DNA of 64,000 nt. Source: Abyssalbus ytuae. Its GTDB lineage: Bacteria > Bacteroidota > Bacteroidia > Flavobacteriales > Flavobacteriaceae. Below, piece by piece: positions 13,517 through 33,187 of the stretch. Under the pieces are notes generated by a model. It was not told where the DNA came from, made no database searches, and saw only the letters and a program-made list of their open reading frames with translations. The stretch is from NCBI RefSeq assembly GCF_022807975.1, contig NZ_CP094358.1, positions 1,054,001 through 1,118,000 on the forward strand, written 5' to 3'. The position numbers were made by a program, and so were the translations under genes. Every line of letters starts with the position of its first letter. The stretch's first letter is position 1.

Positions 13517-13590
13517 TGGAGAATATCGGAGTCGAACCGATGACCTCCTGCGTGCAAGGCAGGCGCTCTAGCCAGCTGAGCTAATTCCCC
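13517..13590 (-). tRNA. tRNA-Ala (TGC)
   Basis: 74 nt. Full cloverleaf: acceptor GGGGAAT with ATTCTCC (one G-U), D arm AGCTCAGCTGG, anticodon loop CTTGCAC with anticodon TGC, T arm TCGGTTCGACTCCGA, discriminator A. CCA is not encoded. It lies between tRNA-Ile and 23S. Confidence 0.97.
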
Positions 13591-13756
13591 TTTTTTTTAA
13601 ATTTAAGAATTACGATTTTTGAATTACGAATTCTTCTCAGGAGAATCTTCTATTCTCAACCCTAGTTTCTCAATTTTTCAATACTCAATGAACTCTTCTT
13701 CTTTACTAACTTTCCAATCCCTGATTCTAAACCTGAAGTCGTAAATGGTAAATTTA

Positions 13757-13837
13757 GTAGTCTCGGGCAGGCTTCTCGCCCTTGGCGTGATAAACTTCAC
13801 ACCCCGCCGTTGCTACTACCGTAGTCTCGGGCAGGCT
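13757..13837 (-). repeat. 17-nt duplication of the tRNA-Ile 3' end
   Basis: GTAGTCTCGGGCAGGCT occurs at 13821-13837, where it is the T-arm/acceptor end of tRNA-Ile, and again exactly at 13757-13773, a 64-bp period. The segment between is GC-richer than the surrounding spacer. Confidence 0.75.
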
Positions 13838-13895
13838 CGAACTGCCGACCTCTACATTATCAGTGTAGCGCTCTAACCAGCTGAGCTACGAGACT
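13822..13895 (-). tRNA. tRNA-Ile (GAT)
   Basis: 74 nt. Acceptor AGTCTCG pairs with CGAGACT; D arm AGCTCAGCTGG; anticodon loop CTGATAA with anticodon GAT; T arm GCAGTTCGAGCCTGC; discriminator A. CCA is not encoded. Its 3' half is partly duplicated 64 bp further along the spacer. Confidence 0.97.
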
Positions 13896-13982
13896 TCTTT
13901 GATGGCCTGCAGGATCCGGTAAAACCGTTTCGGTAATTCTACCCAAAACCGGTTCTCTTTACCCACATACCTTTTTTTTTTA

Positions 13983-13992
13983 ATTGACAGCA
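13983..13992 (-). other. 3' arm of the 16S rRNA processing stem (candidate)
   Basis: ATTGACAGCA here is the exact complement of 15706-15715 in the 16S leader. A second complementary block follows (ATAAGCAAAATCA against 15628-15642, one mismatch), so leader and trailer of 16S can pair in two segments. Confidence 0.5.
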
Positions 13993-14050
13993 TAAGCAAA
14001 ATCAACCCTTCGTAAGGACTTAACCAGGAATACCCCAGGATCTTTCTCTA

Positions 14051-15570
<1,520 letters not shown>

Positions 15571-15722
15571 ATTCTTTAATAATATTAATATCCTTAAAAT
15601 ATAACCCGTTTTATCCTTCTCCGGAAATGACTTTGCTTATTCTTCTTTTTTTATCCTTGCGGATCTTACCTTAGGTATGTCTTTGTTCAAAAAACACACC
15701 CGGCGTGCTGTCAATCAATATC

Positions 15723-15740
15723 TCAATGAACTCTTCTTCT
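15723..15740 (-). promoter_or_regulatory. boxA-like leader element of 16S
   Basis: The 18-nt sequence with GTTCATTGA on the minus strand is repeated exactly at 13685-13702, in the spacer between tRNA-Ile and tRNA-Ala, and its core again before 23S (13469-13477). Position fits rRNA antitermination; no experiment is implied. Confidence 0.45.
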
Positions 15741-15771
15741 CTTCTTATAGCTCCCTTGTCGAAAGCGGGTG

Positions 15772-15804
15772 CAAATATAAAAACCTTTTTTCCCTTTTTC
15801 CAAA
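15772..15804 (-). promoter_or_regulatory. rRNA operon promoter, proximal (candidate)
   Basis: TATATTTG at 15772-15779 on the minus strand is an exact -7 box. The nearest TTG (15802-15804) leaves a 22-nt spacer, slightly long. It lies about 200 nt from the 16S 5' end. Confidence 0.55.
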
Positions 15805-15908
15805 CTTTTTTATGGAAAAATTTTTAGCCGATTCCTGACCCGGAAAAATGACCCTTTTTTACACCTTTTTTAAGAACTTTCGCCTTATGGTCTCCCTCAA
15901 AGCGGCTG

Positions 15909-15938
15909 CAAATATATAACCCTTTTTTGATTTTGCAA
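15909..15938 (-). promoter_or_regulatory. rRNA operon promoter, distal
   Basis: Minus-strand TTG (15936-15938), a 19-nt spacer, then TATATTTG (15909-15916): a full match to the Bacteroidota housekeeping promoter. TATATTTGCA is shared with the proximal promoter about 137 bp downstream, giving a tandem arrangement usual for rRNA operons. Confidence 0.8.
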
Positions 15939-16105
15939 TACTTACCCTGAACTTTTTTTGGACTTTTTTTAGACCCCCTCCCTAAACCCCTGTTTTTAAA
16001 GACCTCCTATGAAAAAAAAATTCCCGAAACTATCCCTTTTATCCCCTAATCTAGAATACTTATAAGACGGGCTCTGTTGAAAAGAAAAGAATACTTAACT
16101 TATTT

Positions 16106-18279: not shown

Positions 18280-18876
18280 ATGTTATTAAACTTACTAGAT
18301 GTAAAGTGGGAAACAGGCACCGATGAGGCCGGGAGAGGATGTTTAGCCGGTCCTGTTACTGCTGCTGCTGTTATCCTGCCAAAGAATTTTGAAAATAGCG
18401 TTATAAACGACTCCAAACAACTGTCAGAACAAACCCGGAATTTATTAAGACCTATTATTGAAACTGAAAGCGTTTGTTATGGAGTAGTGCATGTATTTCC
18501 TGAAGAAATTGACAAAATAAATATTTTAAATGCTTCTATAATTGGTATGCACAGGGCAATAGAAAAGCTTAAAGTATTACCGGAACATATTATTGTTGAC
18601 GGAAATAAATTTAAACCATATAAACAAATACCACATAAATGCGTTATAAAAGGAGACAGTAAATACATGAGTATAGCAGCAGCTTCTATTTTGGCCAAAA
18701 CATACAGAGATGCTTATATGGAAAGCATTCATGAAGAATTTCCCATGTACAACTGGAAAAAAAACAAAGGCTATCCTACCAAAGAGCACAGGGAGGCCAT
18801 AAAAAAATATGGTATAACAAAATATCACAGAAGAAGTTTTAGATTATTGCCGGAACAGTTGACACTTGATTTATAA
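18280..18876 (+). CDS. rnhB: Ribonuclease HII
   Basis: Cuts the RNA strand of RNA-DNA hybrids and removes misincorporated ribonucleotides. The catalytic start of the family, [21 protein letters not shown], is present, as are the VDGNKFKP and [21 protein letters not shown] blocks that supply further acidic residues. The start at 18280 ([20 protein letters not shown]) gives 198 residues, a normal RNase HII length. The in-frame ATG at 18226 would add 18 non-conserved residues and overlaps the promoter box. It is divergent from the porin gene and is followed after 31 bp by a lipoprotein gene in the same direction. Confidence 0.94.
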
Positions 18877-18907
18877 ATATTATTTTTGTGATAAACCTAA
18901 TCAATTA

Positions 18908-21361
18908 ATGAAGAGAGCATTTATTATTTTAATTCTAGTCATTGCAGGTTGCAGCACCCAATCTTCCAAAAAGAGCAGTCTTATTTCTTTTATACCTTCA
19001 AACAGTGCGTTGATTATTAAAATTAACGACTATCAGCGTTTTAAAAGTGACCTGAAAAACAGTGCAATTTTAGAAAAATTCAACAATACATCAATATTCA
19101 AGAATACGGAACAAAAATTTACTGGTCTGGAAGACTTTGATCCTTATAAAGAAACTATTTTAACATTTTCGGAAGTAGGAAAAGACAATGTAGAATACAC
19201 CTTCATTACAAAAAATACTGTAGCCATGTTTAACATGGATAGTACGGTGATTAAAAATCAAAAAACCAGGGATTACGAAAACAAGACTATAAAATCGTAT
19301 ACCATAAAAGGAGAAAAAATTTTTACCACCTTAATAGACAGCATTTTTTTGGTTTCTTCGTCTGAATTACTTATTGAAAACTCAATACGAAATTACGGCA
19401 AAACCCAACCTGATGAAGAATTTTCCAAACTATATACAACCTCACAAAAAAATGCTATAGCTACCCTTTTTATTCATCATGGTAACAGTATTCCATATCT
19501 TAAAAACACTGTAGCTGATAAATTATTGAGCAATTTTAAAAATTTCAGTCAGTGGAGTGCTGTTGATATTTCAGCCGAACAAGAAAAAATCCGACTAAAT
19601 GGAGTGGCCATATCCAACGATTCTACCCAAATCAAAACAATACAACTTTTTGAAAATATAAACCCGGAAATTAACAGGGCTATTAGTATAATGCCCATGG
19701 ATTTTGATGCTCTAACCTCCTTCACCTTTAGCAACTTTGTAACCTTTCTGAAAAATAAAAACCCTGACCCCTTAAAAAAAACAGATTCTTTATTTTTCGA
19801 TATTGATGAATTTGCCATTTTAAATAAAGCGGACAAAAGGGCTACTGCTATTCATGCAAAAAATTTTGAAGTATTAAACGACTCGCTTAAAAATTTAAAT
19901 GGTGAAGAAAGCATTTTTAGGGAATATTCAATATTCAAATTAAAAAGACCCTCGGCTGTAGAAACTAATTTCTATCCTCTTATCAAAGGATTTACAGCAG
20001 AATATTACACCAGCATTAATGATTTGTTTCTTTTTTCTGAAGAAAAGGAAATTTTACAAGATGTTATTGCTAATTTTCAAAATAATACGATTATTACTTC
20101 CCTACCTTCTTTTGAAGAAATTAAAAAGGAAATATCCGATAATTCTTCTATTCTTTTTATAGGGAAATATGATAAATGCATCCAAAGTGATCTCTTTTTA
20201 AAAGAAGATTTAAAAAAAGAATTAGATAGTCCTGCCGGGAAGGAAGATAAATTCATCGTATTTCAGGCTACCTCATCAAAAGATTATACTTATGTCAATG
20301 CTTTAATTAAAAAAACCGAAGCAAAAGTAGAAACCAATCTTGTTTCCCAGGAGTTCAGCACAAAACTTGATGCTAAAATTATTACCAGGCCACAATTTGT
20401 CATTAATCACCGAAGTAAAAAGAAAGAGGTAGTGGTACAGGATGCAGATAATAATCTTTATCTCATAGCAACTAACGGAAAAGTGCTGTGGAAGAAAAAA
20501 CTTAACAGTAAAATAATTGGAGACATCCAACAGGTTGATTTATACAGAAACGGACGTTTACAACTTGCATTTGTTACACAACACGAATTAATGATTGTAG
20601 ACCGAAACGGTAAAGATGTACCTCCATTCCCCATAAAATTTAATGATCCGATCACACAACCCCTGGCTCTTTTTGATTATGACAAAAGTAAAGATTACAG
20701 GTTTTTGATAGTACAGGGTAAAAACTTAAACATGTATGATCGGGAAGGAAGCATTGTTTCCGGATTTGTATTAAAAAATACCGAAAGCTATATAAACAGC
20801 ATACCTCAACATTTTAGAGTAGGGAATAAAGATTATTTGGTAGTTACAGAAGAGGGCGGAAAATTAAATATTCTGCACCGTACAGGAAAAACAAGAATCC
20901 CTGTTAAAAACCCAATAAAATTTTCCGGTAACAATGTTTATTTACATGAAAGCAAGTTTACCATGACCGATATCAATGGAAACTTGATACAGGTCGATGA
21001 AAACGGGAAAATATCAAAAGAATATTTAAAGGTAAACAACACCCATTTTATTGATGCAACCAGCAAAACACTGGTTACGTTATCTGACAATGTACTTACT
21101 ATAAGAGGACGAAAAATTGAACTGGATTATGCTATTTACTCCAGACCGAAAATTTTCTACATAAACAACAAAATTTATGTAACTGTAACTGACACTCAAT
21201 CTAATAAAGTTTACTTGTTCGATAGTCAGGCCGAACCTATTCCCAATTTTCCAGTTTATGGCACCTCTGCCATTGATCTGGATGATATTGACAATGATCA
21301 AAAAGTAGAGTTGGTTGTACAGGGGGAAGAAGATTCTGTTCTGGTTTATAAGGTGAATTAA
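18908..21361 (+). CDS. Large lipoprotein of unknown function with propeller-like C-terminus
   Basis: 817 residues from 18908. The upstream frame start at 18866 overlaps rnhB and lies before the signal peptide, so it is rejected. The lipobox ends IAGC (Cys15). Residues after Cys (STQSSKKSS) are not acidic, so surface export is not predicted. The N-terminal 480 or so residues alternate alpha/beta with no motif I recognise. The C-terminal 300 or so contain repeats such as VVVQDADNNLYLIATNGKVLWKK, LMIVDRNGKDVPPFP and LNMYDREGSIVSGF, resembling PQQ-type beta-propeller blades, ending DLDDIDNDQKVELVVQGE. The pairing with rnhB appears conserved in flavobacteria, but I cannot give a function. Confidence 0.7.
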   Translation: MKRAFIILILVIAGCSTQSSKKSSLISFIPSNSALIIKINDYQRFKSDLKNSAILEKFNNTSIFKNTEQKFTGLEDFDPYKETILTFSEVGKDNVEYTFITKNTVAMFNMDSTVIKNQKTRDYENKTIKSYTIKGEKIFTTLIDSIFLVSSSELLIENSIRNYGKTQPDEEFSKLYTTSQKNAIATLFIHHGNSIPYLKNTVADKLLSNFKNFSQWSAVDISAEQEKIRLNGVAISNDSTQIKTIQLFENINPEINRAISIMPMDFDALTSFTFSNFVTFLKNKNPDPLKKTDSLFFDIDEFAILNKADKRATAIHAKNFEVLNDSLKNLNGEESIFREYSIFKLKRPSAVETNFYPLIKGFTAEYYTSINDLFLFSEEKEILQDVIANFQNNTIITSLPSFEEIKKEISDNSSILFIGKYDKCIQSDLFLKEDLKKELDSPAGKEDKFIVFQATSSKDYTYVNALIKKTEAKVETNLVSQEFSTKLDAKIITRPQFVINHRSKKKEVVVQDADNNLYLIATNGKVLWKKKLNSKIIGDIQQVDLYRNGRLQLAFVTQHELMIVDRNGKDVPPFPIKFNDPITQPLALFDYDKSKDYRFLIVQGKNLNMYDREGSIVSGFVLKNTESYINSIPQHFRVGNKDYLVVTEEGGKLNILHRTGKTRIPVKNPIKFSGNNVYLHESKFTMTDINGNLIQVDENGKISKEYLKVNNTHFIDATSKTLVTLSDNVLTIRGRKIELDYAIYSRPKIFYINNKIYVTVTDTQSNKVYLFDSQAEPIPNFPVYGTSAIDLDDIDNDQKVELVVQGEEDSVLVYKVN

Positions 21362-21462: not shown

Positions 21463-22623
21463 TCAACGGCAATGTGTACTGATATACTGGTCTTCAAAAA
21501 TATACGATTTATTATAATCTACAAGAAAACGACCTGTACTAAACTGGCAGTCAAAGCTTAATTCATCGCCTTGTTTTATTTGGTTAAAATCCACACTAGG
21601 AGCTGTGGTTGGGTTGCAGGTAATAGGCTTGGAGAAATCCTCTAAAAGATTTTTAGCAATGGCATTGGTTTCGTTCTTCAATTCATTTAATACCTCATTA
21701 GATATAGACTGTTTTTCCAACTCTTCCCTTGGAACAAATTCAATATCCCGGCCAATAGCTTTCCCTGACCGAAATATCTGGTTGCTGTCAATTTTAAATT
21801 CAGTTCGAAAAAAAGTATGCACATAGGCGATTTTCACAAAATTCGGATCATTTTCAAAATCCGATTCTATATACGAATTTTTAAGTTTGGTAGTCAGGTC
21901 CTTTCTAAGGAAAGAATCTAAAGGTATCTCCCGTTTATCATACCAGATTTCATGTTTTTGATATTCATACCCTTCAAAAGACTCTCCTTTGTCCTGTCTT
22001 TCATCCATACACCTTGCATACATAACCACTTCTTTAGCGACATAATGAAAACCGTTTCGTTCACGAAAAAAAGGGATTTTATATTCCTTTTTCAACTTCC
22101 ACCTACCCTGATATTTATAACAGGGATAATAACAATCTTCAGGAAGTTCTTTTAGCTTCACATAAGGTTGTACATAATTATTCTCAAATCCCCATCGCAA
22201 CATCTCATAACGCAGCTTTTTTTCTTCCCGATGTTCGGTAAGCAGAGTATCCGTATTATTTCTAAAGTAATAAAAGGATAGAAAAATTGCAGTAATTAAT
22301 AATAACCCTATGGCTAGTAATAAACTTCTATTTCCAAAATTGAATATTTTACTTTTTTCTCCTGATTTTAATATTTTCTCACGAAGTTCATGCACGTCCA
22401 GTAAACGTTGCACATTTCTCAGTGCACGGGTTAGTTCTCCTTCGGAGGCCGTATTATTAATCAATCTGGAAAATTGCGAATCACTATAAAATAAATCCCT
22501 GGCTATTTTAGAATTACTGGTAGATTCAAACTTTTTATTTACCGAATCAAAACGTCCATAGTGTTTCTCTAGCTTAGATATAAAATTTGCATGAATCTTA
22601 TTTATCTCTTCTTCTTTACTCAT
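21463..22623 (-). CDS. Single-pass membrane protein of unknown function facing the SusCD locus
   Basis: 386 residues, no signal peptide. One transmembrane helix at about 100-119 (SLLLAIGLLLITAIFLSFYY). The N-terminal 99 residues are charged, and the piece SKIARDLFYSDSQFSRLIN resembles a helix-turn-helix, followed by TRALRNVQRLLDVHELREK. The C-terminal 265 residues are probably extracytoplasmic and include CYYPCYKYQGRWKLKKEYK and three further Cys. The layout (cytoplasmic DNA-binding-like part, membrane helix, outer sensor) would fit a membrane-bound regulator of the divergent SusC gene, but this is inference from position and a weak motif. No family is recognised. Confidence 0.6.
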   Translation of the reverse strand: MSKEEEINKIHANFISKLEKHYGRFDSVNKKFESTSNSKIARDLFYSDSQFSRLINNTASEGELTRALRNVQRLLDVHELREKILKSGEKSKIFNFGNRSLLLAIGLLLITAIFLSFYYFRNNTDTLLTEHREEKKLRYEMLRWGFENNYVQPYVKLKELPEDCYYPCYKYQGRWKLKKEYKIPFFRERNGFHYVAKEVVMYARCMDERQDKGESFEGYEYQKHEIWYDKREIPLDSFLRKDLTTKLKNSYIESDFENDPNFVKIAYVHTFFRTEFKIDSNQIFRSGKAIGRDIEFVPREELEKQSISNEVLNELKNETNAIAKNLLEDFSKPITCNPTTAPSVDFNQIKQGDELSFDCQFSTGRFLVDYNKSYIFEDQYISTHCR

Positions 22624-22946
22624 TGAGGAGGGTATTGGGGTAAACTGTTAAGAATTTCCTAATCTACAAAATTAAAACATATTATTCACTTTATAGGAAA
22701 ATCACAGACATTCTAAGGTTTCAGATCAAAATTTATTCAACATTTATTTCCTGTTTCCTAAAACGTTTCACTAAACATTGTTAAATATTGTTAAATATCG
22801 ATAAAAATTGATAAAATAAAAAAAATAGCCTAAAAAAATATATTATTGCTAACCAATCTGCTGTATTTGTAACAAAATAGCAATTCGGTTGATTGTGAAA
22901 ATTCACCTTTTTGACTCAAATTTTACAAACTTAAAAACATTATGGT
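22624..22946. promoter_or_regulatory. Control region of the SusCD locus with phased decamers
   Basis: Non-coding and very AT-rich. Four decamers abut exactly at 22777-22816 (ATTGTTAAAT twice, ATCGATAAAA, ATTGATAAAA), a 10-nt period close to one helical turn. A near -7 box (TGTATTTG, 22862-22869; one mismatch) follows. No full promoter with a -33 TTG is visible. The decamers may bind a regulator or bend DNA; that is inference. Confidence 0.4.
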
Positions 22947-25900
22947 ATGAAAATAAGACTACATCAAATTTTCTTGTTATTTTTCGTATTATCAACTCAA
23001 CTGATTTTTTCCCAAAGATTAATTACCGGAACCGTAAATGATGGAGACGGTCAGCCTATGGTAGGTGTTTCTATTATTGAAGAAGGGACATCTAATGGAA
23101 CTACTGTTGATTTTGATGGTAATTTCTCCATCACTACTAAATCGGACACACCAACCCTGGTGTTCACCTATGTGGGTTTCGAAACTCTTACTATTGAAGT
23201 AGGTGAAGAATCAACCCTAGACGTAGTAATGAAAGATGATTTACTTTCTTTAGGGGAAGTAGTGGTAACCGCAATGGGATTCGAAGCAAATAAAGATGAT
23301 CTGGGGTATGCGAGTTCCACCATTAATGGTGATCTCCTTACTAATTCAGGTGAAACCAGTTTATTAAATTCCCTTTCGGGAAAAGCTTCCGGCCTTCGTA
23401 TTAGTCGTACGTCAGGTGATCCGGGTGCCGGATCTCACATCCAAATCAGGGGGGTATCTACCCTTACCCGAAGTACTCAACCTCTAATAGTTATTGACGG
23501 CGTTCCCATAAGTAACGACACCCGTAATGATGATGATAGTGGGGGGGTTAATCAACAATCGAGGTTAAATGATATTAACCCCAATGATATTGAAAGCATT
23601 TCCGTTTTAAAAGGTGCATCTGCTGCCGCACTTTGGGGAACAAAAGCTTTAGGCGGTGTTATACAGATTACCACTAAAAACGGAGATTTTAACAGTAAAA
23701 TGAAAGTAACCTACAAAAGCACCTTTTCTTATGATGAGATCAACGTTAAATATCCTCTCCAATCACAATATGGACAGGGAAGTGATGGTGTATATAGTCA
23801 AACCGATGCAAGATCCTGGGGAGATCGTATAGCCGACCGTCCCGGAGGTGTAGATAATTTTAATACAAATGGAGAATTCTTTATAGATCAGGCCGGCAAT
23901 GTGTATTATCCTATAGTAAACAAAAATTCCAGAGAAATTCTTCAGGATTCAAATTTTGACCAGATTTTTGACAATGGTTACTTTTTTGAAAATAATTTAA
24001 GTATTAGTGGTGGGTCGGCTAAAAGTTCTATGTTTTTTAGCCTGGCAGACTTAAATCAACAGGGTATTATTAGAAACAATTCAGATTACAAAAGGTCTAC
24101 CGTTCGCTTTAACGCCCACCACTATTTTAATGATGCTATTAGTTTAAAATTAAGTTCATCTTACACCCGTACAAAATCAAACAGGATTTTAAAAGGGGCT
24201 ACCAGTTCAGGTCTTTATCTTGGACTGTTAAGAACCCCGGCCGATTTTGATATAACCGGATACAGAGGTGATTATTATGCAGCAAGTGATGCTTCCCCTA
24301 TTACAAACAGGCAAAGGTCATATCGTAACCCTTTAGGAGCAGATGAAAATCCTGGGTTTAATAACCCTCTTTGGACAATAAATGAGCAGGAAAACCTATC
24401 TAAACTTGATCACTTTATTACCAACGTAGAACTCACAGCAGCACCAAATTCATGGCTTACATTAATAGGAAGAGCCGGATTAGACCATTATAGTGAAAAA
24501 ACCAATCAATTTTTTACTCCAGGCGCTGCAACTCAGGAATTTAGAAACGGATTGCAAAGTCAGGAACTGGCCACCAACACCATTTTCAACATGGACTATA
24601 TAGCAAAAACTGCTTTTAACTTTACTGATGATATGACTGGTGATTTCCTTCTCGGATTTAATTATAATGACAGAACCCGTGTAGTAAACGGATATGAGGG
24701 CACAAATTTTATTCAATTTATAGATGTAGATAGTGATATAAGAGACAAAAATAATATTGCACGGGAGAATATTGTAACAAAAAGCACTCAGGGACATGAA
24801 CGTACCGTAGGTGTATATTCTTCTCTTTCCTTTTCACTCTATGATATGTTTGATATAAATGGTACTGTAAGAGCTGAAACAGCTTCAACTTTTGGGGAGA
24901 ACAGTGACAAACCATTTATATTTCCTTCAACTTCCATAGCATGGCAATTTTCTCAGTTAGAACCATTCAGGGATAGTAATTTTTTATCTTTTGGTAAATT
25001 AAGAGCCTCTTATGGTGAAGTAGGTGTACAACCGGAACGTTATAATACTACGAACTCCTATACTTCTCCTACCTATGGTGATGCATATGGAGGCAGCCTT
25101 AACCTTGGATTATTTGGTAATGGTGGTTTTGTCCCTCGATCTGCTCGCGGAAATGCCAGTCTTAAACCCGAACGAAAAAGGGAACTGGAATTTGGAGCAG
25201 ACCTTCGGTTTTTCCGTAACCGACTGTCACTGAGCGGAACTTATTATACAAACGAAATAGAAGATGTCCTTTTAGATCTTCCTTTGGCTAACACATCCGG
25301 GTATACTTCTATTTATACCAACGGAGCTAAAATAGAAAATAAAGGATATGAACTGGACCTTTTATATCATATTATTAACAGCCAGAACGTAACCTGGTCC
25401 ATAGACTTAACTTACTCACAAGTACGTAACAAAGTTGTTGATCTTTTAGGTATAGAATCTATGAGCCTGGGAGGATTAGCAGCTGTAAGCCCATCTGCCG
25501 TAGTAGGCCAGCCTGTAGGTGTATTGTGGGGTTCACGAATCCTGCGTGATGAAAACGGAGCTATTGTGTTTGATGAATACGGATTTCCGGAGAAAGACAT
25601 CAAAGAAGGGGTGATAGGAAATCCTAATCCTGACTGGCAGGGTTCAGCATTGTCTACTTTTAAATATAAAAACCTGAGGTTATCTGTATTGTTAGAAACT
25701 TTCCAGGGAGGAGATGTATTTGCCGGAACTAAATCAGCATTGCGTGATTATGGAACCTGGTACGATACAGCAAATGAAGTAACAGCTACCCGCAATTATT
25801 TCCGTTCCGATGGCAGCATCGTGAATATAGGAGAAACTTTTCGTGGGAATGTATATGATTTTGGCGCAGGCCCTGTAGCATTAACAGAATCATGGTATAA

Positions 25901-26198
25901 AGGTGAAGGTGGTTATTTCAGTGGCGGGAACCATGAATTATATGTGGAAGATGCCTCATGGACCCGTATAAGGGAAATCAGTATTGCTTATCTGCTAAAT
26001 GGAGATTGGTTAAAAAGATCCGTCGGGCTTGAATCAGCTGAGTTTTCCGTAACCGGAAGAAACCTTTTTCTCTGGACAGATTTTGAAGGAAACGATCCGG
26101 ATTCTAACCTTTCAGGGGTTAGTACAGCACGAGGTATAGATTACTTTAATAACCCGAGTACAAAATCGTATTTATTCAATCTTACACTTATTTTTTAA
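22947..26198 (+). CDS. SusC/RagA-family TonB-dependent outer-membrane transporter
   Basis: 1083 residues. Signal peptide ending FSQ, then the N-terminal carboxypeptidase-D-like module (RLITGTVNDGDGQPMVGVSI), a TonB-box-like stretch (LSLGEVVVTAMGFEANK), a plug domain (RTSGDPGAGSHIQIRGVSTL, PLIVIDGVPISNDTRND, SISVLKGASAAALWG) and a C-terminal barrel ending SYLFNLTLIF. It moves bulky substrates across the outer membrane in a complex with the lipoprotein encoded 18 bp downstream. It is the first gene of a six-gene locus whose enzymes are esterase-like, so the substrate may not be a plain glycan. Confidence 0.96.
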   Translation: MKIRLHQIFLLFFVLSTQLIFSQRLITGTVNDGDGQPMVGVSIIEEGTSNGTTVDFDGNFSITTKSDTPTLVFTYVGFETLTIEVGEESTLDVVMKDDLLSLGEVVVTAMGFEANKDDLGYASSTINGDLLTNSGETSLLNSLSGKASGLRISRTSGDPGAGSHIQIRGVSTLTRSTQPLIVIDGVPISNDTRNDDDSGGVNQQSRLNDINPNDIESISVLKGASAAALWGTKALGGVIQITTKNGDFNSKMKVTYKSTFSYDEINVKYPLQSQYGQGSDGVYSQTDARSWGDRIADRPGGVDNFNTNGEFFIDQAGNVYYPIVNKNSREILQDSNFDQIFDNGYFFENNLSISGGSAKSSMFFSLADLNQQGIIRNNSDYKRSTVRFNAHHYFNDAISLKLSSSYTRTKSNRILKGATSSGLYLGLLRTPADFDITGYRGDYYAASDASPITNRQRSYRNPLGADENPGFNNPLWTINEQENLSKLDHFITNVELTAAPNSWLTLIGRAGLDHYSEKTNQFFTPGAATQEFRNGLQSQELATNTIFNMDYIAKTAFNFTDDMTGDFLLGFNYNDRTRVVNGYEGTNFIQFIDVDSDIRDKNNIARENIVTKSTQGHERTVGVYSSLSFSLYDMFDINGTVRAETASTFGENSDKPFIFPSTSIAWQFSQLEPFRDSNFLSFGKLRASYGEVGVQPERYNTTNSYTSPTYGDAYGGSLNLGLFGNGGFVPRSARGNASLKPERKRELEFGADLRFFRNRLSLSGTYYTNEIEDVLLDLPLANTSGYTSIYTNGAKIENKGYELDLLYHIINSQNVTWSIDLTYSQVRNKVVDLLGIESMSLGGLAAVSPSAVVGQPVGVLWGSRILRDENGAIVFDEYGFPEKDIKEGVIGNPNPDWQGSALSTFKYKNLRLSVLLETFQGGDVFAGTKSALRDYGTWYDTANEVTATRNYFRSDGSIVNIGETFRGNVYDFGAGPVALTESWYKGEGGYFSGGNHELYVEDASWTRIREISIAYLLNGDWLKRSVGLESAEFSVTGRNLFLWTDFEGNDPDSNLSGVSTARGIDYFNNPSTKSYLFNLTLIF

Positions 26199-26215
26199 TC
26201 CCGAAAATTACGACT

Positions 26216-27631
26216 ATGAAATCTTATATAGCTATAATCTTTGTTATTATTTTAAGTACATCATGCAGTGACCTTGTTGAAGGCATCAATGATGACCCTA
26301 ACAACGTAACCCAGAGTTCCTTTGGAAATGTATTAACAGGTGCAGAAGTAGGAAACACACTTTTTCAAAGTGGTGAATCTTCCAGAAGAGCGGCTATCTT
26401 TGCCGGCCAATATACAGGAATTGACAGACAACATCTGGGTTTTACAACTTATTCTGTAATAAGTAGTGATTTTGATGGTGTATGGAGTGATTCCTATGTA
26501 AACGCCTTAAGAAATACTATAGTAGCAGAAGAGGTTGCAAATGATGAAAATTTAGAAGGCATATCAAAAGGTATCACTTTGGTTTTACAAGCCCATGTTT
26601 TTGGAAGCCTTGCATCATTGTATGGCGACATCCCTTTTGATGAAGCCGGAAACTTTTTAATTTCCGATCCTGTATTTGAAGATCAGATAGAGGTATATGC
26701 CAAAATACAAAAACAACTGGATGAAGCAATAGAGCTACTTAACTCAGAGATTGACAGACCGGAAGCAGGTGCAGATATATATTTTAACGGAAATCCTGAT
26801 AAATGGATTGAAGCAGCCAATACCCTGAAAGCGCGTTTTTATATGCATACCAAAAACTACCAGAAAGCCTATGATGCAGCAGGGAGAGGCATTAGCTCTA
26901 TAGATAATTCCATGTACAGTCCTCATAAGGACTCAGACGACGCAGGCAACCTAAATTACCAGTTTTTTATTGGTCGGGGTGAAACTGATGTTGTGGTTTC
27001 TGATTTTATGGTAAGCTTACTAAATCCCGGTGCCAGTAATCCTATCGCTGCTAATTACCGGGGTAATACAAAAACTGACGAAACAGGAAGATATAATTAC
27101 TTATTCGTAACAAATACTGCAGGTGTACAGCCAAATACAACCAATGGCTTTGCAGCACAAACTGCCCCAGCCCCTTTAGTCACTTATGAAGAAAACCTTT
27201 TAATACTGGCCGAAGCCGGATTCAGGGTAGGCGGATTTGATACCGGGCTTGACAATTTGAACAGGTTCAGGGCTTTTATGGCAACAGGCGGATATTTAAC
27301 CAATGCAGACCCCGCACAAATTACTTATGAGCCGTATGAAGCTTCTGATTTTGAAGCAGGAGGAATGGAAAATCCGGATAGTATAAGCAGGGAAAATGCC
27401 TTATTAAGAGAAATTCTTGAAGAACGGTATGTTACCTTATTCGGCCAAATAGAAACTTTTAATGATACGCGCAGAACAGAAAATGAAACTGTGGTAAGAG
27501 TTCCTGTAATGCCTAACACAGGTGATCTCTTACCTCAACGGTTTCTATATGCACAATCAGAAATAAACAGCAATAACAATGTTCCTGACCCGCTTCCGGA
27601 ATTTTTTGAAAAAACTCCGGTGAACGAATAA
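26216..27631 (+). CDS. SusD/RagB-family substrate-binding lipoprotein (SusD-like_2 type)
   Basis: 471 residues. Lipobox LSTSC with Cys17, then SDLVEGINDDPNNVTQSSFGN, the typical N-terminus of the SusD-like_2 group. The helical TPR-like scaffold follows (YVNALRNTIVAEEVANDE, PDKWIEAANTLKARFYMH), and the C-terminal part has EENLLILAEAGFRVGG and REILEERYVTLFGQIETFNDTRR. It forms the lid of the SusC transporter encoded just upstream and helps capture ligand at the cell surface. The tight spacing indicates one transcript. Confidence 0.94.
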   Translation: MKSYIAIIFVIILSTSCSDLVEGINDDPNNVTQSSFGNVLTGAEVGNTLFQSGESSRRAAIFAGQYTGIDRQHLGFTTYSVISSDFDGVWSDSYVNALRNTIVAEEVANDENLEGISKGITLVLQAHVFGSLASLYGDIPFDEAGNFLISDPVFEDQIEVYAKIQKQLDEAIELLNSEIDRPEAGADIYFNGNPDKWIEAANTLKARFYMHTKNYQKAYDAAGRGISSIDNSMYSPHKDSDDAGNLNYQFFIGRGETDVVVSDFMVSLLNPGASNPIAANYRGNTKTDETGRYNYLFVTNTAGVQPNTTNGFAAQTAPAPLVTYEENLLILAEAGFRVGGFDTGLDNLNRFRAFMATGGYLTNADPAQITYEPYEASDFEAGGMENPDSISRENALLREILEERYVTLFGQIETFNDTRRTENETVVRVPVMPNTGDLLPQRFLYAQSEINSNNNVPDPLPEFFEKTPVNE

Positions 27632-27651
27632 AATATTCCAGTAATAGAATT

Positions 27652-28425
27652 ATGAAATCAATGAGGAAAAAAAATATTTATATACCTGTTATTTGCTTAA
27701 TTCTACTGCTACCATTTGGTTTAAAAAGTCAAACCAAAAAAGAGCCTGTTAAAATACTTTTTGTAGGCAACAGCCTTACTTTTTTTTGGAATATGCCACA
27801 ACTGGTAAGTGCCATGGCAAAAAGCCAGGGGGTTGAAATTCAAGCTTATCAATCTACGGTAAGCGGAAGTAACCTGGAACAACACTGGAAAGGGGAAAAG
27901 GGAACTCTGACACAAAAACGTATAGAGGAAGAAAAGTGGGACTATGTAGTGTTTGGTGATCATACTACAAGCACTATAAAAAATCCGGACCGGTTTGATG
28001 AATATGCAAGAAAATTTGCAAAACTGGTTCGTTCAAAAGGTGCTGAACCCATATTTTATATTACATGGGCGTATAAATCAAACCCGTTAATGCAGGAAAC
28101 CGTTACGAATGGCTATATACAACTTGCCAAAGAATTAAACGCTCAGGTATTTCCTGTAGGTCCCATTTGGATGAAGTCCAGAAATCTCAGACCTGATTTG
28201 GAACTATATTTTGATGATAAGCATCCATCTCCGGATGGTACCTATTTAGTCGCATTGATAATAACAAAATCTCTCACCGGAAAATCAGTTTTGGACATAC
28301 CTAACAGATTGACCACACTGGATAAAAATAGTGAGAAGTTATATCTGTCATTTGTATTGCCTGCCAACGGAAACTTTTTAAGACAATTGGTTGAAGAAAC
28401 AAATCTTGAAATATATAAAAGATAA
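27652..28425 (+). CDS. Secreted SGNH/GDSL-type hydrolase
   Basis: 257 residues with a signal peptide (to about residue 26, GLKSQ). Block I FVGNSLTFFWNMP supplies the nucleophile Ser41; block V FDDKHPSPDGTYLVA supplies Asp188 and His191 in the DxxH order of SGNH esterases. Blocks II and III are less clear (STVSGSNLEQH and YVVFGDHTT). The usual Asn of block III is not obvious, which needs a structural check. Such enzymes remove acyl groups from carbohydrates or hydrolyse small esters. It lies 20 bp after susD and 2 bp before the transporter, so it is part of the locus. Substrate unknown. Confidence 0.8.
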   Translation: MKSMRKKNIYIPVICLILLLPFGLKSQTKKEPVKILFVGNSLTFFWNMPQLVSAMAKSQGVEIQAYQSTVSGSNLEQHWKGEKGTLTQKRIEEEKWDYVVFGDHTTSTIKNPDRFDEYARKFAKLVRSKGAEPIFYITWAYKSNPLMQETVTNGYIQLAKELNAQVFPVGPIWMKSRNLRPDLELYFDDKHPSPDGTYLVALIITKSLTGKSVLDIPNRLTTLDKNSEKLYLSFVLPANGNFLRQLVEETNLEIYKR

Positions 28426-28427
28426 AA

Positions 28428-29912
28428 ATGAAGTTAGGGAAAAAAAACATTTTTTTGATAGCAGGGCCAATGTCTTTTATCATCTTACAGATGCTTAAAA
28501 CTCCCGAGGGTATGCCTGAAAGTGCTTTTGATATGTTGGGAATAACGCTCTGGATGGCTATTTGGTGGATTACCGAAGCAATCCCCATTGGAGCAACAGC
28601 TTTGCTGCCAATAATACTTTTTCCAATGGTAGGTGCAGCAGATCTTTCATCCACTACCTCATCATACGGACATAAATATATTTTTCTCTATATGGGGGGG
28701 TTTATGTTAGCTATTGCTATTGAAAAGTGGAACCTTCATAAACGAATGGCATTACATATAATTAATCTTATTGGCACCAACATTTCAAAAATCATTTTGG
28801 GGTTTATGGTGGCCACAGCTTTTTTATCAATGTGGATATCCAATACGGCGACCTCAGTTATGATGTTACCCATAGGAATGTCAATAGTGGCACAGTTAAA
28901 AGATAATCCTGCTACCGAAAAAGATGAAAATTTAATCTTTGGTAAAGCACTGATGCTTGCCATTGCTTACAGTTCCTCAATTGGTGGTATTGCCACCTTA
29001 ATAGGTACCCCTCCTAACCTGGTTCTTGCAGGTTTTGTAGAAGAGATATATGGCATGGAAATTACTTTTTGGCAGTGGGCCAAATGGGGGCTACCCATAA
29101 CTATTCCCTTATTAATATTCGCATGGTTATACTTAACCAAATTCGTGTATAATTTCAAACAAAAAGAATTTCCAGGTGGGAAAGCAGAAATAAGCAAATT
29201 GTTACATCAAATAGGCCCTATGAAGAAAGAAGAAAAAATACTTCTTTGGATCTTTTCATTAACTGCTTTTGCCTGGATAAGCCGTTCCTTTATTTTACAA
29301 AGCTTTCTACCGGGAATAGATGATACTATCATTGCCATGTTTTCGGGAATTTTATTATTCACCATTCCTGCAGGCAGCAAAAATAAAACTTTAATTACCT
29401 GGGACGATGCTGTAAAACTCCCCTGGGGAATTATTTTACTATTTGGCGGCGGCATGGCTTTAGCTTCCGGTTTTGAAACCACAGGGCTGGCTAAATGGCT
29501 TGGTAATCAAATGAGCCTGTTACAAGGATTAAGTCTTTTGGGATTAATTGTGGTTATTATCACTTCAGTTAATTTTATTACTGAAGTAACCTCAAATTTA
29601 GCTACTACGGCAATGCTGTTGCCTGTTTTAGCCCCTATTTCCTTTTCTTTGGGTATCAACCCTTACATCCTTATGGTTGCAGCTACCATTGCTGCTTCAT
29701 GCGCTTTCATGCTACCTGTAGCTACTCCCCCAAATGCTGTAGTTTTTGGCTCCGGCTATTTAAAAATTCCGGATATGGTAAAAAGCGGGATATGGATGAA
29801 TATTTTTTCTATCGCATTTCTGGCTCCTATGGTTTACTATGTTTTACCCCTTCTTTGGGGTTTTGATCCTAAAGAATTTAATGAATTTATTTTTAACAAA
29901 ATCACAAAATGA
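28428..29912 (+). CDS. DASS/SLC13-family anion:sodium symporter
   Basis: 494 residues, about 11-12 hydrophobic segments, inner membrane. Hallmarks of the divalent anion:Na+ symporters are present: WISNTATSVMMLPIGMSI, SSIGGIATLIGTPPNLVLAG, and the second repeat TEVTSNLATTAMLLPVL with VATPPNAVVFGSGYLKI. The first Ser-Asn-Thr motif is intact; the second reads Ser-Asn-Leu. Relatives carry succinate, malate, citrate or sulfate with sodium. It starts 2 bp after the SGNH gene. A DASS carrier inside a SusCD operon suggests the imported product is a carboxylate, an inference from context. Confidence 0.92.
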   Translation: MKLGKKNIFLIAGPMSFIILQMLKTPEGMPESAFDMLGITLWMAIWWITEAIPIGATALLPIILFPMVGAADLSSTTSSYGHKYIFLYMGGFMLAIAIEKWNLHKRMALHIINLIGTNISKIILGFMVATAFLSMWISNTATSVMMLPIGMSIVAQLKDNPATEKDENLIFGKALMLAIAYSSSIGGIATLIGTPPNLVLAGFVEEIYGMEITFWQWAKWGLPITIPLLIFAWLYLTKFVYNFKQKEFPGGKAEISKLLHQIGPMKKEEKILLWIFSLTAFAWISRSFILQSFLPGIDDTIIAMFSGILLFTIPAGSKNKTLITWDDAVKLPWGIILLFGGGMALASGFETTGLAKWLGNQMSLLQGLSLLGLIVVIITSVNFITEVTSNLATTAMLLPVLAPISFSLGINPYILMVAATIAASCAFMLPVATPPNAVVFGSGYLKIPDMVKSGIWMNIFSIAFLAPMVYYVLPLLWGFDPKEFNEFIFNKITK

Positions 29913-29939
29913 TAAACCCAAAATTCTAAAACTCATACT

Positions 29940-31703
29940 ATGAAAAACAATTCTACTATCTTGGCTATACTGATGTTGTTCTTCATTATTAGCTGTAATG
30001 ATGATGAAAATACAGTTACAGAAGACAATACCTTAACTGTAATGAAAACGAACCTTACTGATGACCTGTCAGAACCCATCGAAAATATATCCGTCGGAAC
30101 TTCTATAGAAATAATTTTTTCTCATAGCCTGGATATAAATAAAATAGAATCTGCACTTAGTCTGTCTTCTTCTTTAGGAGAGACCGATCATACCATTGAA
30201 TTTTCCAATACAAACTCTACCGTTATCCTCACCCCCACTTCTCCATTGGAATATGAAACAATGTATACGATTTCCTTACCGGAAGGGGTTTATGGAGCAA
30301 AAGGAGAAACATTAAAAACCTCCTTATCAATAAATTTTTCCACAGGAATATATACCCTACCAGTGGCAACCTTATTAAGCAGTACTTCAACCCTGGAAGA
30401 AAAAGATGAAGAAACAGCTACTATTACCATTCAATTAAATAAAGCTACTAATGAAGAGGTAACAGCAACCCTGGTTTTTTCGGGAACAGCAACCGAAGGA
30501 GTAGACTATACCATTTCAGGTGAAAAAACAATTTCAATACCTAAAGGTAGTTCTTCAACTACTGTTACAATTACTTCTATTGCAGATAATGATAGTGAAG
30601 GAGCAGAACTTATTTCTATCGCACTTACTGACATAACCAATGCTATAGATGAATCAATCCAACTTAATATTGCTGTTAATGATCCGCCTCTTGCTCTTTC
30701 CTTACAGGGAATCATGTCTCTTGCATGGGATAGTGCAGGAACCAATGGCGGTAAAGCAATACACCTTGTAGCAAATGAAGATATAGCAGATTTAAGTCTG
30801 TTCGGCTTGGGAACTGCTAATAATGGCGGTGGCACCGATGGTAAAGAATATGTATTACCTGCACAATCTGTTTCTAAAGGAGATGATATTCTTTTAGCCA
30901 GGGAAGTCGACCTCATATCGGCTTATTTTGAAGGTTGTATGAGCGAATTTGAACACATTATTACAGCAGAATCTACCATAAATCAGAATGGAGACGATGC
31001 CATTGAACTTTTCCAGGGAGACACCGTAATTGAAACTTATGGAGATGCAAACATCGACGGAACAGGTGAAGATTGGGAATACTCAGGTTCCTGGGCTTAT
31101 AAAGTAGACGGTTTCTGGACAACCGGTGGTATTGATTGTTCTGTAGGCTCTACTACTAACAGTACCTCTGCCTGTCCTTATCCCCTATGTGCCGAACCAC
31201 TAATGCTTCAGGGAATATTAGCCTTATCATGGGAGGGAAGTGGTGCCAATGGTGGAAAAGCTATTCACTTAAAAGCAGTTAAAGACATTCCTGACTTAAG
31301 TATTTATGGCCTTGGCACTGCTAATAACGGAGGAGGTTCTGACGGTCTTGAATATACTTTACCCAACCAGGCTGTTAATAAAGGTGACGATATTATTATT
31401 GCCCGTGAACCGGCAACCCTTGCAGCTTACTTTGGTACTTGTATAGACTCTTTTGATCATGTTATTGAAGCAACTAGTTCAATAAATCAAAGTGGAGACG
31501 ATGCGATTGAACTTTTCAAGAATGGAGTGGTTATAGAAACCTACGGTGATGTCACCTACTCAAGTGACGCAGCTACACCATGGGAATACACAGGCTCCTG
31601 GGCTTATAAAGTAGATGATTTGTGGACAATCGGTGGTATTAAGTGTGCCGATGGTTCTACCTCTACTCAAAGTTCAAGTTGTGTATATCCTATATGTAAT
31701 TAA
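29940..31703 (+). CDS. Surface lipoprotein: Big_5, Calx-beta and two LTD-like modules
   Basis: 587 residues. Lipobox IISC (Cys19) followed by acidic NDDEN, which fits the Bacteroidota lipoprotein surface-export signal. The order is an SbsA/Big_5 Ig-like domain (about 30-145), a Calx-beta-like repeat (about 150-245, GVDYTISGEKTISIPKGSSS), then two homologous modules of about 160 residues. Each module has LQGI(M/L)(S/A)L(A/S)W, GGKAIHL, LFGLGTANNGGG or its variant, SINQSGDDAIELF, and GSWAYKVD followed by a Cys pair; they resemble the lamin-tail/LTD-like domains of bacterial surface proteins. No catalytic motif is seen; a binding or scaffolding role at the cell surface is inferred. Fifth gene of the SusCD locus. 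Confidence 0.8.
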   Translation: MKNNSTILAILMLFFIISCNDDENTVTEDNTLTVMKTNLTDDLSEPIENISVGTSIEIIFSHSLDINKIESALSLSSSLGETDHTIEFSNTNSTVILTPTSPLEYETMYTISLPEGVYGAKGETLKTSLSINFSTGIYTLPVATLLSSTSTLEEKDEETATITIQLNKATNEEVTATLVFSGTATEGVDYTISGEKTISIPKGSSSTTVTITSIADNDSEGAELISIALTDITNAIDESIQLNIAVNDPPLALSLQGIMSLAWDSAGTNGGKAIHLVANEDIADLSLFGLGTANNGGGTDGKEYVLPAQSVSKGDDILLAREVDLISAYFEGCMSEFEHIITAESTINQNGDDAIELFQGDTVIETYGDANIDGTGEDWEYSGSWAYKVDGFWTTGGIDCSVGSTTNSTSACPYPLCAEPLMLQGILALSWEGSGANGGKAIHLKAVKDIPDLSIYGLGTANNGGGSDGLEYTLPNQAVNKGDDIIIAREPATLAAYFGTCIDSFDHVIEATSSINQSGDDAIELFKNGVVIETYGDVTYSSDAATPWEYTGSWAYKVDDLWTIGGIKCADGSTSTQSSSCVYPICN

Positions 31704-31736
31704 TAATCATAAACTGAATACTAAATCTTACATCAT

Positions 31737-33119
31737 ATGAATATAAAAAATAAAATAAAGCATATTTACAACCTTTGTATAGCCCTTACTTTTATAGGGC
31801 TTACAGGTTGCGATAATGAGGACGATACCTCTTCTCCGACTGAAATACTTGTTTTTAAATTAAACAATGAGGCCTTTACCGATAATACCGAAAACGTACC
31901 CGTTAACAGTACATTCGAAATGATTTTCTCATCGCCGGTAATTGCCGATAAATTCGAAGGTGCTTTTCATGTAAAAGCAGGTACCGATAATATCCCTTAT
32001 ACTGTTCAATATCAAAATCAATCATCAAAAGTATTGGTCGATATCAAGGATATGTCTTATAGCACCAGCCATACCATCGGGATAAAAGCAGGAGAAATAG
32101 GCGAAAAAGGAAAAGTTCTTACAAATGACTTACTTTTCAATTTCAAAACAAAGGCTGCAAATACCAAAACCCCTTGCCTTACTGCTTCAGACAATTGCAC
32201 GCAACAATTAAGTTTTACCGATAATGCAGATGCTTCTCTCACCTTCGATATGTATTCTAATTATGATTTTGTAGATGATTCGGAATTTGTATGGGATTTT
32301 ATAAAACAGGTAGTTGTGGTGGTTCATGGAGCCGAAAGGAACTCAGATGAATATTTTAACTATATGGTAAATTCTTTAAGAAGTTTGGAACTGGAAGAAA
32401 CCACTCTTATCATTGCCCCTCATTTTGAGGATAAAGATACCGCACCGGCCAATGGTTTAGTTTGGAATGATTCGAGATGGAGGGAAGGTGTCAATGCCGC
32501 TAATAATAATTCGGCAATAAGTTCATTTACAGTAATGGACAGCATCGTAAACAGAATTTCAAACCTGGAGAAATTTCCAAATCTCAAAACAGTATTTATT
32601 GCCGGTCATTCTTCGGGAGCTGCCTATGTACAACATTATGCACTGGCAAACAAAGTTCACGATTTGCATACTCAGATAGATTTTCAATATATAGTGGCAA
32701 ACAGCCAGTATTTCTATTATCCTGACGGAATGCGTTATGATGAAATAGGCCTGAGTTTCTACACCCCAACTGACTGCAACGGATATAATTACTGGCCTTA
32801 CGGATTTGAGTTTGCGGTACCATATCTTGACGGAACAGATGCCAATACTATTTCAAACCAGATGGTAACCAGGAATACTGTTTACTTTTTGGGTACCGAT
32901 GACACCTCTACAAGTGGTTCTCTTAATACTACAGAGTGTCAGGCTACTTTATTAGGTTCAAACCGATTTACAAGAGGCGAGAATATGTTCAGCTATATGG
33001 AAAGGTTTTATGGGGCCACACATAAGCATAAGAAAATTATCGTACAAAATATTGGCCATGACGGAGATGGCATGTTCAATTCCCCGGAGTTCAAACAATT
33101 TATGTTGGAGTTCCAATAA
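31737..33119 (+). CDS. Surface lipoprotein with alpha/beta-hydrolase domain
   Basis: 460 residues. Lipobox LTGC (Cys25) followed by acidic DNEDD. An N-terminal Big_5 Ig-like domain matches that of the preceding protein. The rest is an alpha/beta hydrolase: VVVVHGAERNSDEYF near the oxyanion loop, the nucleophile elbow GHSSGA (Ser292), a candidate acid in FLGTDDTS and a candidate His in NIGHDGDGMF. Conserved Cys (TDCNGYNYW, TTECQAT) may form disulfides. It is likely an esterase or related hydrolase anchored at the cell surface, the last gene of the SusCD locus. It ends at a strong terminator. The true substrate is not evident. Confidence 0.8.
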   Translation: MNIKNKIKHIYNLCIALTFIGLTGCDNEDDTSSPTEILVFKLNNEAFTDNTENVPVNSTFEMIFSSPVIADKFEGAFHVKAGTDNIPYTVQYQNQSSKVLVDIKDMSYSTSHTIGIKAGEIGEKGKVLTNDLLFNFKTKAANTKTPCLTASDNCTQQLSFTDNADASLTFDMYSNYDFVDDSEFVWDFIKQVVVVVHGAERNSDEYFNYMVNSLRSLELEETTLIIAPHFEDKDTAPANGLVWNDSRWREGVNAANNNSAISSFTVMDSIVNRISNLEKFPNLKTVFIAGHSSGAAYVQHYALANKVHDLHTQIDFQYIVANSQYFYYPDGMRYDEIGLSFYTPTDCNGYNYWPYGFEFAVPYLDGTDANTISNQMVTRNTVYFLGTDDTSTSGSLNTTECQATLLGSNRFTRGENMFSYMERFYGATHKHKKIIVQNIGHDGDGMFNSPEFKQFMLEFQ

Positions 33120-33150: not shown

Positions 33151-33187
33151 AATGGGTGGTCTTTAAAAGGACCACCCATTTCTTTTT
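33151..33187 (+). terminator. Terminator of the SusCD locus
   Basis: Perfect 11-bp stem (33151-33161 with 33170-33180) followed by TTCTTTTTT. It closes the six-gene locus and separates it from convergent lipB. Confidence 0.9.

Follow-up and report, generated by a model that had tools for sequence, protein, structure and literature searches.

What does a bacterium take up through a SusC/SusD pair when no glycan-cleaving enzyme stands beside it? SusCD systems are commonly read as a sign of glycan use. The question is raised by a six-gene block in a stretch of 64,000 nucleotides of Abyssalbus ytuae (contig NZ_CP094358.1, positions 1,054,001 to 1,118,000; the whole stretch is called the window here), part of a 4.37 Mb single-contig genome of the Bacteroidota. 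Our analysis indicated that the six genes form a conserved system with well-supported organic-acid import. On balance, the block is probably a SusCD-based uptake system for a beta-carboxyl-linked polymer of C4 dicarboxylates, most likely a hydroxydicarboxylate polyester such as polymalate, the best-known natural candidate.

The block is read on the forward strand. It opens with a SusC-type TonB-dependent outer-membrane channel (22947-26198; TIGR04056, 612.9 bits against a cut-off of 368.25) and a SusD-type surface lipoprotein of the SusD-like_2 family (26216-27631; PF12771, 107.7 bits, cut-off 27), adjacent SusC and SusD homologs as in polysaccharide utilization loci (PULs). These are followed by an SGNH hydrolase of the DUF4886 family (27652-28425; PF16227, 37.8 bits, cut-off 26.7), a DASS/SLC13 anion carrier (28428-29912; TIGR00785, 328.1 bits, cut-off 198.6), an LTD-like lipoprotein that is a putative surface polymer-binding protein (29940-31703), and an alpha/beta-hydrolase (ABH) lipoprotein of the PahZ1/LpqC clade, a putative surface depolymerase with Ser292 and His441 (31737-33119). 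The gaps along this order are 17, 20, 2, 27, and 33 bp, and an intrinsic terminator, a 13-pair stem and then a T-run, lies at 33151-33180 on the same strand. Searches of Pfam and NCBIfam found no match to a carbohydrate-active enzyme family among the six window proteins.

The original prediction, made from the letters of the window, had described six co-directional genes with gaps of 2-33 bp and a single terminator, and all of these elements are present. Its SusC, SusD, SGNH, and DASS calls each lie over the curated family cut-off of Pfam or NCBIfam. The catalytic residues it named in the SGNH hydrolase (Ser41, Asp188, and His191) are conserved in a 45-sequence alignment, and the serine of the GHSSGA motif that it picked out in ABH (Ser292) is a serine in 51 of 51 aligned ABH sequences. 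Its LTD-like label is weak by Pfam, as PF00932 matches one of five members (6.3e-5) and the window's protein is not among the matches. The latter protein contains Big_5, Calx-beta-like (below cut-off), and two LTD-like modules, which are 60% identical to one another.

A scan of a named genome collection with the ABH alignment yielded 55 loci. One of them (L126) had no ABH frame over threshold, and the other 54 were analysed, including four (L107, L121, L124, and L125) with ABH relatives but without the rest of the system. The scan relies on a pair of short peptide patterns, so the nearest relatives of the window may be missing from it. When a run was defined as co-directional genes with gaps of up to 300 bp, SusC, SusD, SGNH, DASS, LTD-like, and ABH genes were found in one run in 36 of the 54 loci, and none of these 36 full blocks contains an interleaved non-core reading frame of at least 80 aa. 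The same gene set thus recurs elsewhere, with SGNH and DASS joined to SusCD and no carbohydrate-active enzyme inside the block, and the co-occurrence check that the original prediction had proposed spoke for it. Many of the 36 loci are from close relatives (Flagellimonas/Allomuricauda above all) and the counts are not independent; several loci come from metagenome-assembled genomes (MAGs), in which absences may be gaps. Because the same six genes stand in one run at 36 of 54 homologous loci, the set is a conserved system and not a product of chance.

Named carriers include Flagellimonas, Allomuricauda, Christiangramia, Robertkochia, Roseivirga, Marivirga, and Portibacter, among others. The gene order shifts while the gene set stays constant: it is SGNH, DASS, SusC, SusD, LTD, ABH in L120 and L093, DASS comes first in L096, L099, and L101, and it comes last in L112, L113, L117, and L119. 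The system is also found outside Bacteroidota, on a contig of Neomarinimicrobiota (L123) with two ABH relatives, SusCD, a PahZ1 relative between SusD and DASS (1.8e-52), LTD proteins, and no SGNH match. A locus labelled as from a Rickettsiales bacterium (L118) has gene lengths and a gene order nearly as in Marinoscillum pacificum (L106), and this MAG label is probably wrong.

What the system brings into the cell is indicated by the carrier and by genes appended to the block. Among solved relatives, the DASS protein scores 290 bits with SLC13A2, 282 with SLC13A5, and 269 with SLC13A1, and the neighbouring genes favour a carbon acid as its substrate. Downstream genes were checked against families in part of the loci. 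A tartrate/D-malate dehydrogenase gene (TIGR02089) lies 5-124 bp downstream of the block in L102, L104, L112, and L122, and all four of the appended genes tested are over the family cut-off. A fifth was found in the L108 genome between the end of ABH and DASS, on another contig. In all, six of 47 system genomes, a set without that of L077, have a TIGR02089 gene over cut-off, five of them within this locus and the sixth (G803) elsewhere. The L102 dehydrogenase matches tartrate dehydrogenase/decarboxylase 3flk, a P. putida protein, at 400 bits, the next PDB entry scoring 262. Genes for phosphoenolpyruvate (PEP) carboxykinase were seen at four loci. In L106 and L118, which count as a single lineage by their architecture, the gene follows the block at a distance of 38-39 bp; in L083 it is two genes further on, and in L066 it stands end to end with the gene of the regulator candidate described below. 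In L084, the block is followed after 9 bp by a fructose-bisphosphatase gene. The expected number of such PEP carboxykinase adjacencies by chance is 0.047, with a probability of 1.7e-5 for at least three, in a post hoc estimate for a genome of 4000 genes with a single copy, counting two genes to each side. L070, from a distant genome, joins an ABH relative to a SusCD-like pair, a lactate permease, and a sodium:dicarboxylate symporter that belongs to a different family. Other appended genes have no evident link: a methyltransferase (L103), a major facilitator superfamily carrier (L096), and a secreted protein (L083).

Organic-acid import gains independent support because tartrate/D-malate dehydrogenase, PEP carboxykinase, and fructose-bisphosphatase genes are appended to the block, and this part of the original prediction is strengthened. 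The two esterases that it had proposed became a hydrolase of the PahZ1 clade and a DUF4886 enzyme, for which an ester bond is the probable target. Its basic observation was right and indeed understated, and the organic acid that it had left as unknown would be a C4 dicarboxylate.

The nature of the polymer is suggested by ABH. This protein has no Pfam match over cut-off (the best is Big_5 at 22.8, cut-off 23.6) and is built as a lipoprotein with an Ig-like N-terminus and an alpha/beta-hydrolase domain. Its lipobox Cys25 is a cysteine in 50 of 51 aligned sequences, and Arg333, Arg410, and Arg413 are identical in all 51. An ABH profile searched against the PDB matched PahZ1 of Sphingomonas (6.1e-11), LpqC (1.2e-10), and PahZ1 of Pedobacter (1.6e-9), the next match being at 0.087. 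The AlphaFold2 model of ABH (mean confidence, pLDDT, 93.3) gave the same answer: Z scores of 25.8, 25.2, and 25.1 with PahZ1/LpqC (VIA) over 252-256 residues at 3.1-3.4 A, then 15.9 for a feruloyl esterase as the next fold. By profile and predicted structure, the catalytic domain belongs to the PahZ1/LpqC clade, with a clear gap to other hydrolases. In L034, a PahZ1 relative occupies the ABH slot (1.8e-51), and the hydrolases of L034 and L123 are nearer to PahZ1 than ABH is. Neither ABH (no match at E<=0.01) nor these two relatives (27 bits each) reach the 150-bit cut-off for type 1 polyhydroxyalkanoate depolymerases (NF050058). Polyhydroxybutyrate as the substrate was rejected on this count and because a monocarboxylate is not a suitable cargo for a DASS carrier.

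PahZ1-like proteins are present in 19 of 395 genomes of the phylum at E<=1e-15. None of the 19 stretches from 18 of those genomes that were inspected, which leave out the copy of the L034 genome (G173), has a window-type block; a TonB-receptor relative stands beside PahZ1 in L181 and L186, and a DASS gene in L171.

PahZ1 of Pedobacter cleaves beta-linked and not alpha-linked aspartate, according to the available portion of a report that knows the family from a synthetic polymer and likens it to polyhydroxybutyrate depolymerases, which cut beta-ester bonds (PMC4456602). This beta-selectivity and likeness, taken with the analogy of malate and aspartate, led to the substrate being read as a beta-linked polymer of a C4 diacid. 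Chemically, poly(beta-malate) corresponds to poly(beta-aspartate) with oxygen in the place of nitrogen. That the substrate is polymalate itself or a close analogue is a tentative assignment, and we would sooner expect it to be wrong than right. Since PahZ1 in the clade acts on amides, we infer, and do not read off, that ABH acts on esters.

The other enzyme, the SGNH hydrolase, would act after ABH. In the alignment of 45 sequences that includes the window's, Ser41 is a serine in 43 (two are gapped), Asp188 and His191 are present in 45 of 45, and Gly72 is a glycine in all 43 ungapped rows. At positions 102 and 103, the candidates for the block III asparagine of the SGNH superfamily, 15 and 14 of 45 rows have asparagine, respectively. 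Membership in DUF4886 is given by a match over the Pfam cut-off with the serine, glycine, aspartate, and histidine of the superfamily present. By inspection, the N-terminus is a signal peptide without a lipobox, and the enzyme is therefore probably periplasmic. DUF4886 figures in one review, in the available portion of which it is without known activity. SGNH-like proteins were found in 56 of 249 genomes of the family at E<=1e-10. Among the 20 best sites beyond the window's genome, from 19 genomes, four have the system (L031, L033, L034, and L035), 14 have no SusCD or DASS relative alongside, and the other two are L032, a different PUL, and L049. In L049 (3442-10523), the genes after a related SusCD pair encode a gamma-glutamyltranspeptidase and a relative of SGNH, with no glycan enzyme adjoining. 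The idea that the parts are exclusive to the system was rejected.

Taken together, these results are consistent with the following route. The SusD and LTD-like surface lipoproteins would hold the polymer, and ABH would act as the surface depolymerase. SusC would import the products with TonB energy, the periplasmic SGNH hydrolase would cut the last bonds, and DASS would bring in the freed C4 acid. The acid would then enter metabolism through malate dehydrogenase or, in certain species, through the operon's tartrate/D-malate dehydrogenase and PEP carboxykinase.

Several observations weigh against this route or its substrate. First, the median isoelectric points of SusD, LTD, and ABH are acidic (4.1-4.4), which is not the charge expected of proteins that bind a polyanion directly. 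The basic isoelectric point of the window's SGNH hydrolase (9.2), once considered as a polyanion argument, was dropped because the family median is 5.5 (n=44). Second, the triad acid of ABH is unsettled, the residue at Asp389 being glycine in 23 of 51 sequences, and the PahZ1/LpqC clade includes an amidase and a putative polyhydroxybutyrate depolymerase. Third, the bit scores of the DASS protein do not split dicarboxylate from sulfate carriers. TIGR02089 is over cut-off in only the six system genomes, and the window's own genome has no such gene over cut-off; the PEP carboxykinase statistic was made after the result had been seen. Fourth, some relatives lie near sugar genes: L070 is also close to hexuronate genes, L122 has rhamnosidase-like and GH28-like genes downstream of the block, and a 64%-identical SGNH hydrolase stands with three sulfatases, GH88, a GMC oxidoreductase, and SusCD in L032 (8358-19990), which implies that DUF4886 enzymes may also serve sulfated-glycan loci. 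Fifth, the substrate is assigned from sequence comparison. Tartrate dehydrogenase acts on D-malate and tartrate; a polymer of L-malate does not account directly for this preference, and the actual polymer may have another unit or another stereochemistry. Natural polymalate is mainly L-malate in the available text on Aureobasidium from mangroves (PMC4528779). The Comamonas polymalate hydrolase, a 43-kDa outer-membrane protein, is reported in a review to be without serine-esterase activity (PMC9210645).

An amide polymer was the first alternative to be considered. The locus would then degrade a poly-beta-aspartate-like or cyanophycin-like polymer, with DASS or another carrier importing the product. 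The closest characterised ABH relative, PahZ1, cleaves the beta-amide bonds of poly(aspartate), and PEP carboxykinase would serve aspartate catabolism too. Furthermore, three genomes (L171, L172, and L174) have loci with a MocR-type regulator, a PahZ1 relative, LTD proteins, DcuC, a beta-aspartyl peptidase, and a putative porin, and L171 also has a DASS gene next to that of PahZ1. From their gene content, these are plausibly beta-aspartyl loci and possibly represent a natural role for poly(aspartic acid) hydrolase-1. (L173 and L174 are neighbouring stretches of one contig.) Against an amide, a beta-aspartyl peptidase is over cut-off in one of 48 system genomes, some of them incomplete MAGs, and this one is the window's own; no match lies within the window-type loci. 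The window genome keeps a separate locus of the aspartyl type (G000:C1:2844804-2854314; L190:4805-14315), with genes for MocR, an LTD-like protein, DcuC, beta-aspartyl peptidase, a porin-like protein, an M14 carboxypeptidase, and another porin-like protein, which is plausibly for beta-aspartyl polymers or dipeptides as judged by these families. Tartrate/D-malate dehydrogenase has no role for aspartate, and DASS carriers are not known to take amino acids. Since the window-type locus has, in place of a beta-aspartyl peptidase, an SGNH hydrolase and in some species a hydroxyacid dehydrogenase, an ester rather than an amide linkage is favoured, and the amide polymer appears unlikely.

Small-molecule esters of tartrate or malate, for example with phenolics, are a second and slightly less likely alternative, in which the hydrolases would free the acid for import by DASS. 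Dicaffeoyl tartrate occurs in seagrasses. The operon-linked tartrate dehydrogenase, the two esterase-type enzymes, and the feruloyl esterase as the next-best ABH fold (Z 15.9) are in line with such a diet, but PahZ1/LpqC score 9 Z units above feruloyl esterases, the SusCD pair and large surface lipoproteins suit polymers, and no phenolic catabolic family was found among those neighbours that were family-searched, a part of all neighbours. The least probable is a PUL accessory for acylated glycans, whose hydrolases would strip dicarboxylate or other acyl groups with the backbone enzymes elsewhere: the L032 and L122 neighbourhoods and L066, which keeps the regulator candidate, SGNH, and DASS with a different SusCD, speak for it, but no other kind of gene lies within any of the 36 full blocks, the carrier is DASS and not a sugar carrier, and the appended genes serve organic acids and gluconeogenesis.

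A candidate regulator lies upstream of the block. The original prediction had missed both this divergent gene (21463-22623, reverse strand; 386 aa, named HTH386 here) and a tandem array of four 10-bp direct repeats (22780-22819). By inspection, HTH386 has a helix-turn-helix-like N-terminus. A predicted long helix at about residues 99-126 reads as a membrane helix, with a beta-rich domain behind it, and the AlphaFold2 model has a pLDDT of 79. No Pfam or NCBIfam match was over cut-off (the best was 12.4 bits against 27), nor was there a PDB-sequence match at E<=1 or, with the full-length model, a Foldseek match to the PDB at E<=0.001. The neighbour of HTH386 at 18866-21361 is a reading frame of 831 aa that matches DUF3352 and beta-propeller families weakly.

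Relatives of HTH386 are divergent from the operon in 33 of the 37 loci with the upstream gene visible, 13 loci that start at an edge having been left out. The four without it are L106 and L118 (a chemotaxis-receptor-type gene instead), L112 (a subtilase gene), and L123. The protein is rare, being found in seven of 397 genomes of the family (E<=1e-8) and four of 395 of the class (E<=1e-6), together nine distinct genomes. In each of the nine, the window's included, the run adjoining HTH386 contains a DASS gene. L066 keeps HTH386, SGNH, and DASS with its different SusCD pair and has no LTD or ABH gene. On the short contig L067, HTH386 is accompanied only by DASS and a putative porin of 425 aa, so named from inspection and without a Pfam match. 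These variants imply that HTH386 stays with the anion carrier and that the outer-membrane front end is the part that varies.

The array (GTTAAATATT, GTTAAATATC, GATAAAAATT, GATAAAATAA) lies within the 323-bp region separating HTH386 and SusC. It has 17 of 20 matches at period 10, which was equalled by none of 300 shuffles. Similar regions were compared in 38 HTH386-linked cases (the window's, 33 from the named-genome loci, L034, L066, L067, and L146), the controls being 19 divergent regions from elsewhere in these loci. Among periods 7-15, period 10 alone scored best in 36 of the 38 and in none of the controls, and it stood at or below 1% of 300 dinucleotide shuffles in 31 of 38 and in none of 19. 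The seven that miss this threshold are L075, L076, L086, L087, L094, L120, and L067, of which L120 and L067 are the weakest. The L066 array is kept (17/20) despite the different SusCD, and that of L067 is not significant. A period of 11 was rejected, with none of 38 regions at or below 1% of shuffles. In the window's genome, a three-unit pattern with one mismatch allowed has two overlapping matches here and one in front of a gene that looks mraZ-like on inspection, a control pattern having none. The most economical reading is that the array is a putative operator for HTH386, and the putative membrane-anchored protein would have its sensing side outside the cytoplasm, respond there to the acid or to oligomers of it, and act at the repeats. 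A conserved, possibly promoter-like element, TATAT[A/T]ATTG, follows at 22839-22848 on the forward strand, and TATAT[A/T]ATT is present in 19 of the 38 regions. The mraZ-like gene belongs to a cell-division cluster, and the similar 10-bp tandem repeat upstream of it (G000:C1:1022524-1022551; L150:7525-7552) consists of GTGGTAAAAA units spaced as in the HTH386 array. Elsewhere in the window, the GC content rises to as much as 0.46-0.49 at 10000-16000, with tRNA-Ala and tRNA-Ile at 13516-13895; this part is probably a ribosomal RNA operon.

If the organic acid does come from a polyester, glycan degradation is overestimated wherever it is judged by the number of SusCD pairs, and carboxylate-rich polyesters, a class of marine organic matter, gain identifiable consumers. 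The system would also be the ester twin of the beta-aspartyl (amide) locus, with which it shares LTD-like surface proteins and PahZ1-type hydrolases. It would be a SusCD-type locus dedicated to a natural C4 hydroxydicarboxylic polyester (polymalate or a D-malate/tartrate analogue), the first of its kind, ranging from marine Bacteroidota to Neomarinimicrobiota, with a new family of membrane-anchored regulators reading a 10-bp tandem repeat operator, and it would imply that polymers of this sort do serve as a source of carbon in the sea; this full claim is advanced with reserve, as a possibility that falls short of being probable. From the locus, a natural function can be proposed for the enzymes of the PahZ1 family, and HTH386 with its putative operator is a compact, testable unit. 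It also supplies testable genes for polymalate turnover, for which a bacterial hydrolase activity is described in a review (PMC9210645). No such locus was found among the literature matches listed, most subscription journals lying outside their scope, for searches that included SusD with tartrate dehydrogenase, polymalate with SusC/SusD, polyester with SusC, and SusD with dicarboxylate symporter.

Compared to known systems, the locus has both shared and distinct features. The polymalate hydrolase of Comamonas acidovorans 7789 likewise cuts polymalate at the outer membrane for use as a carbon source, but it is reported without serine-esterase activity, the comparison being one of descriptions (PMC9210645). 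SusD homologs that bind polyethylene terephthalate are also SusD proteins touching a polyester; they are cellulose or chitin binders tested on plastics, with no polyester uptake locus described in the available portion of the report (PMC11267923). ABH shares with PahZ1 (PDB 6ve6 and 9o7u) and LpqC (3d0k) the fold, the clade, the nucleophile motif (GHSxG in two and GFSxG in 9o7u), and the RxxR stretch. It differs from them in its Ig-like N-terminal domain and lipobox and in its SusCD and DASS neighbours; the identity is 17-20% in structural alignment, and the ABH activity is predicted only. The MocR/LTD/DcuC/beta-aspartyl-peptidase loci share LTD-like surface proteins and a C4-dicarboxylate carrier, and a PahZ1-type hydrolase in L171, L172, and L174, whereas these three and L190 have, instead of SGNH, SusCD, and HTH386, a beta-aspartyl peptidase, MocR, and a putative porin that was recognised by inspection and matches no family. 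The usual PUL regulators are hybrid two-component systems (HTCS), SusR, and sigma/anti-sigma pairs, while HTH386 matches no family searched. As in SusCD-type PULs, the system combines SusC/SusD, surface lipoproteins, predicted hydrolysis at the surface and then in the periplasm, an inner-membrane carrier, and a linked regulator; in contrast to them, the window block is without a glycoside hydrolase or lyase and has a DASS anion carrier and hydrolases of the polymer-esterase/amidase type.

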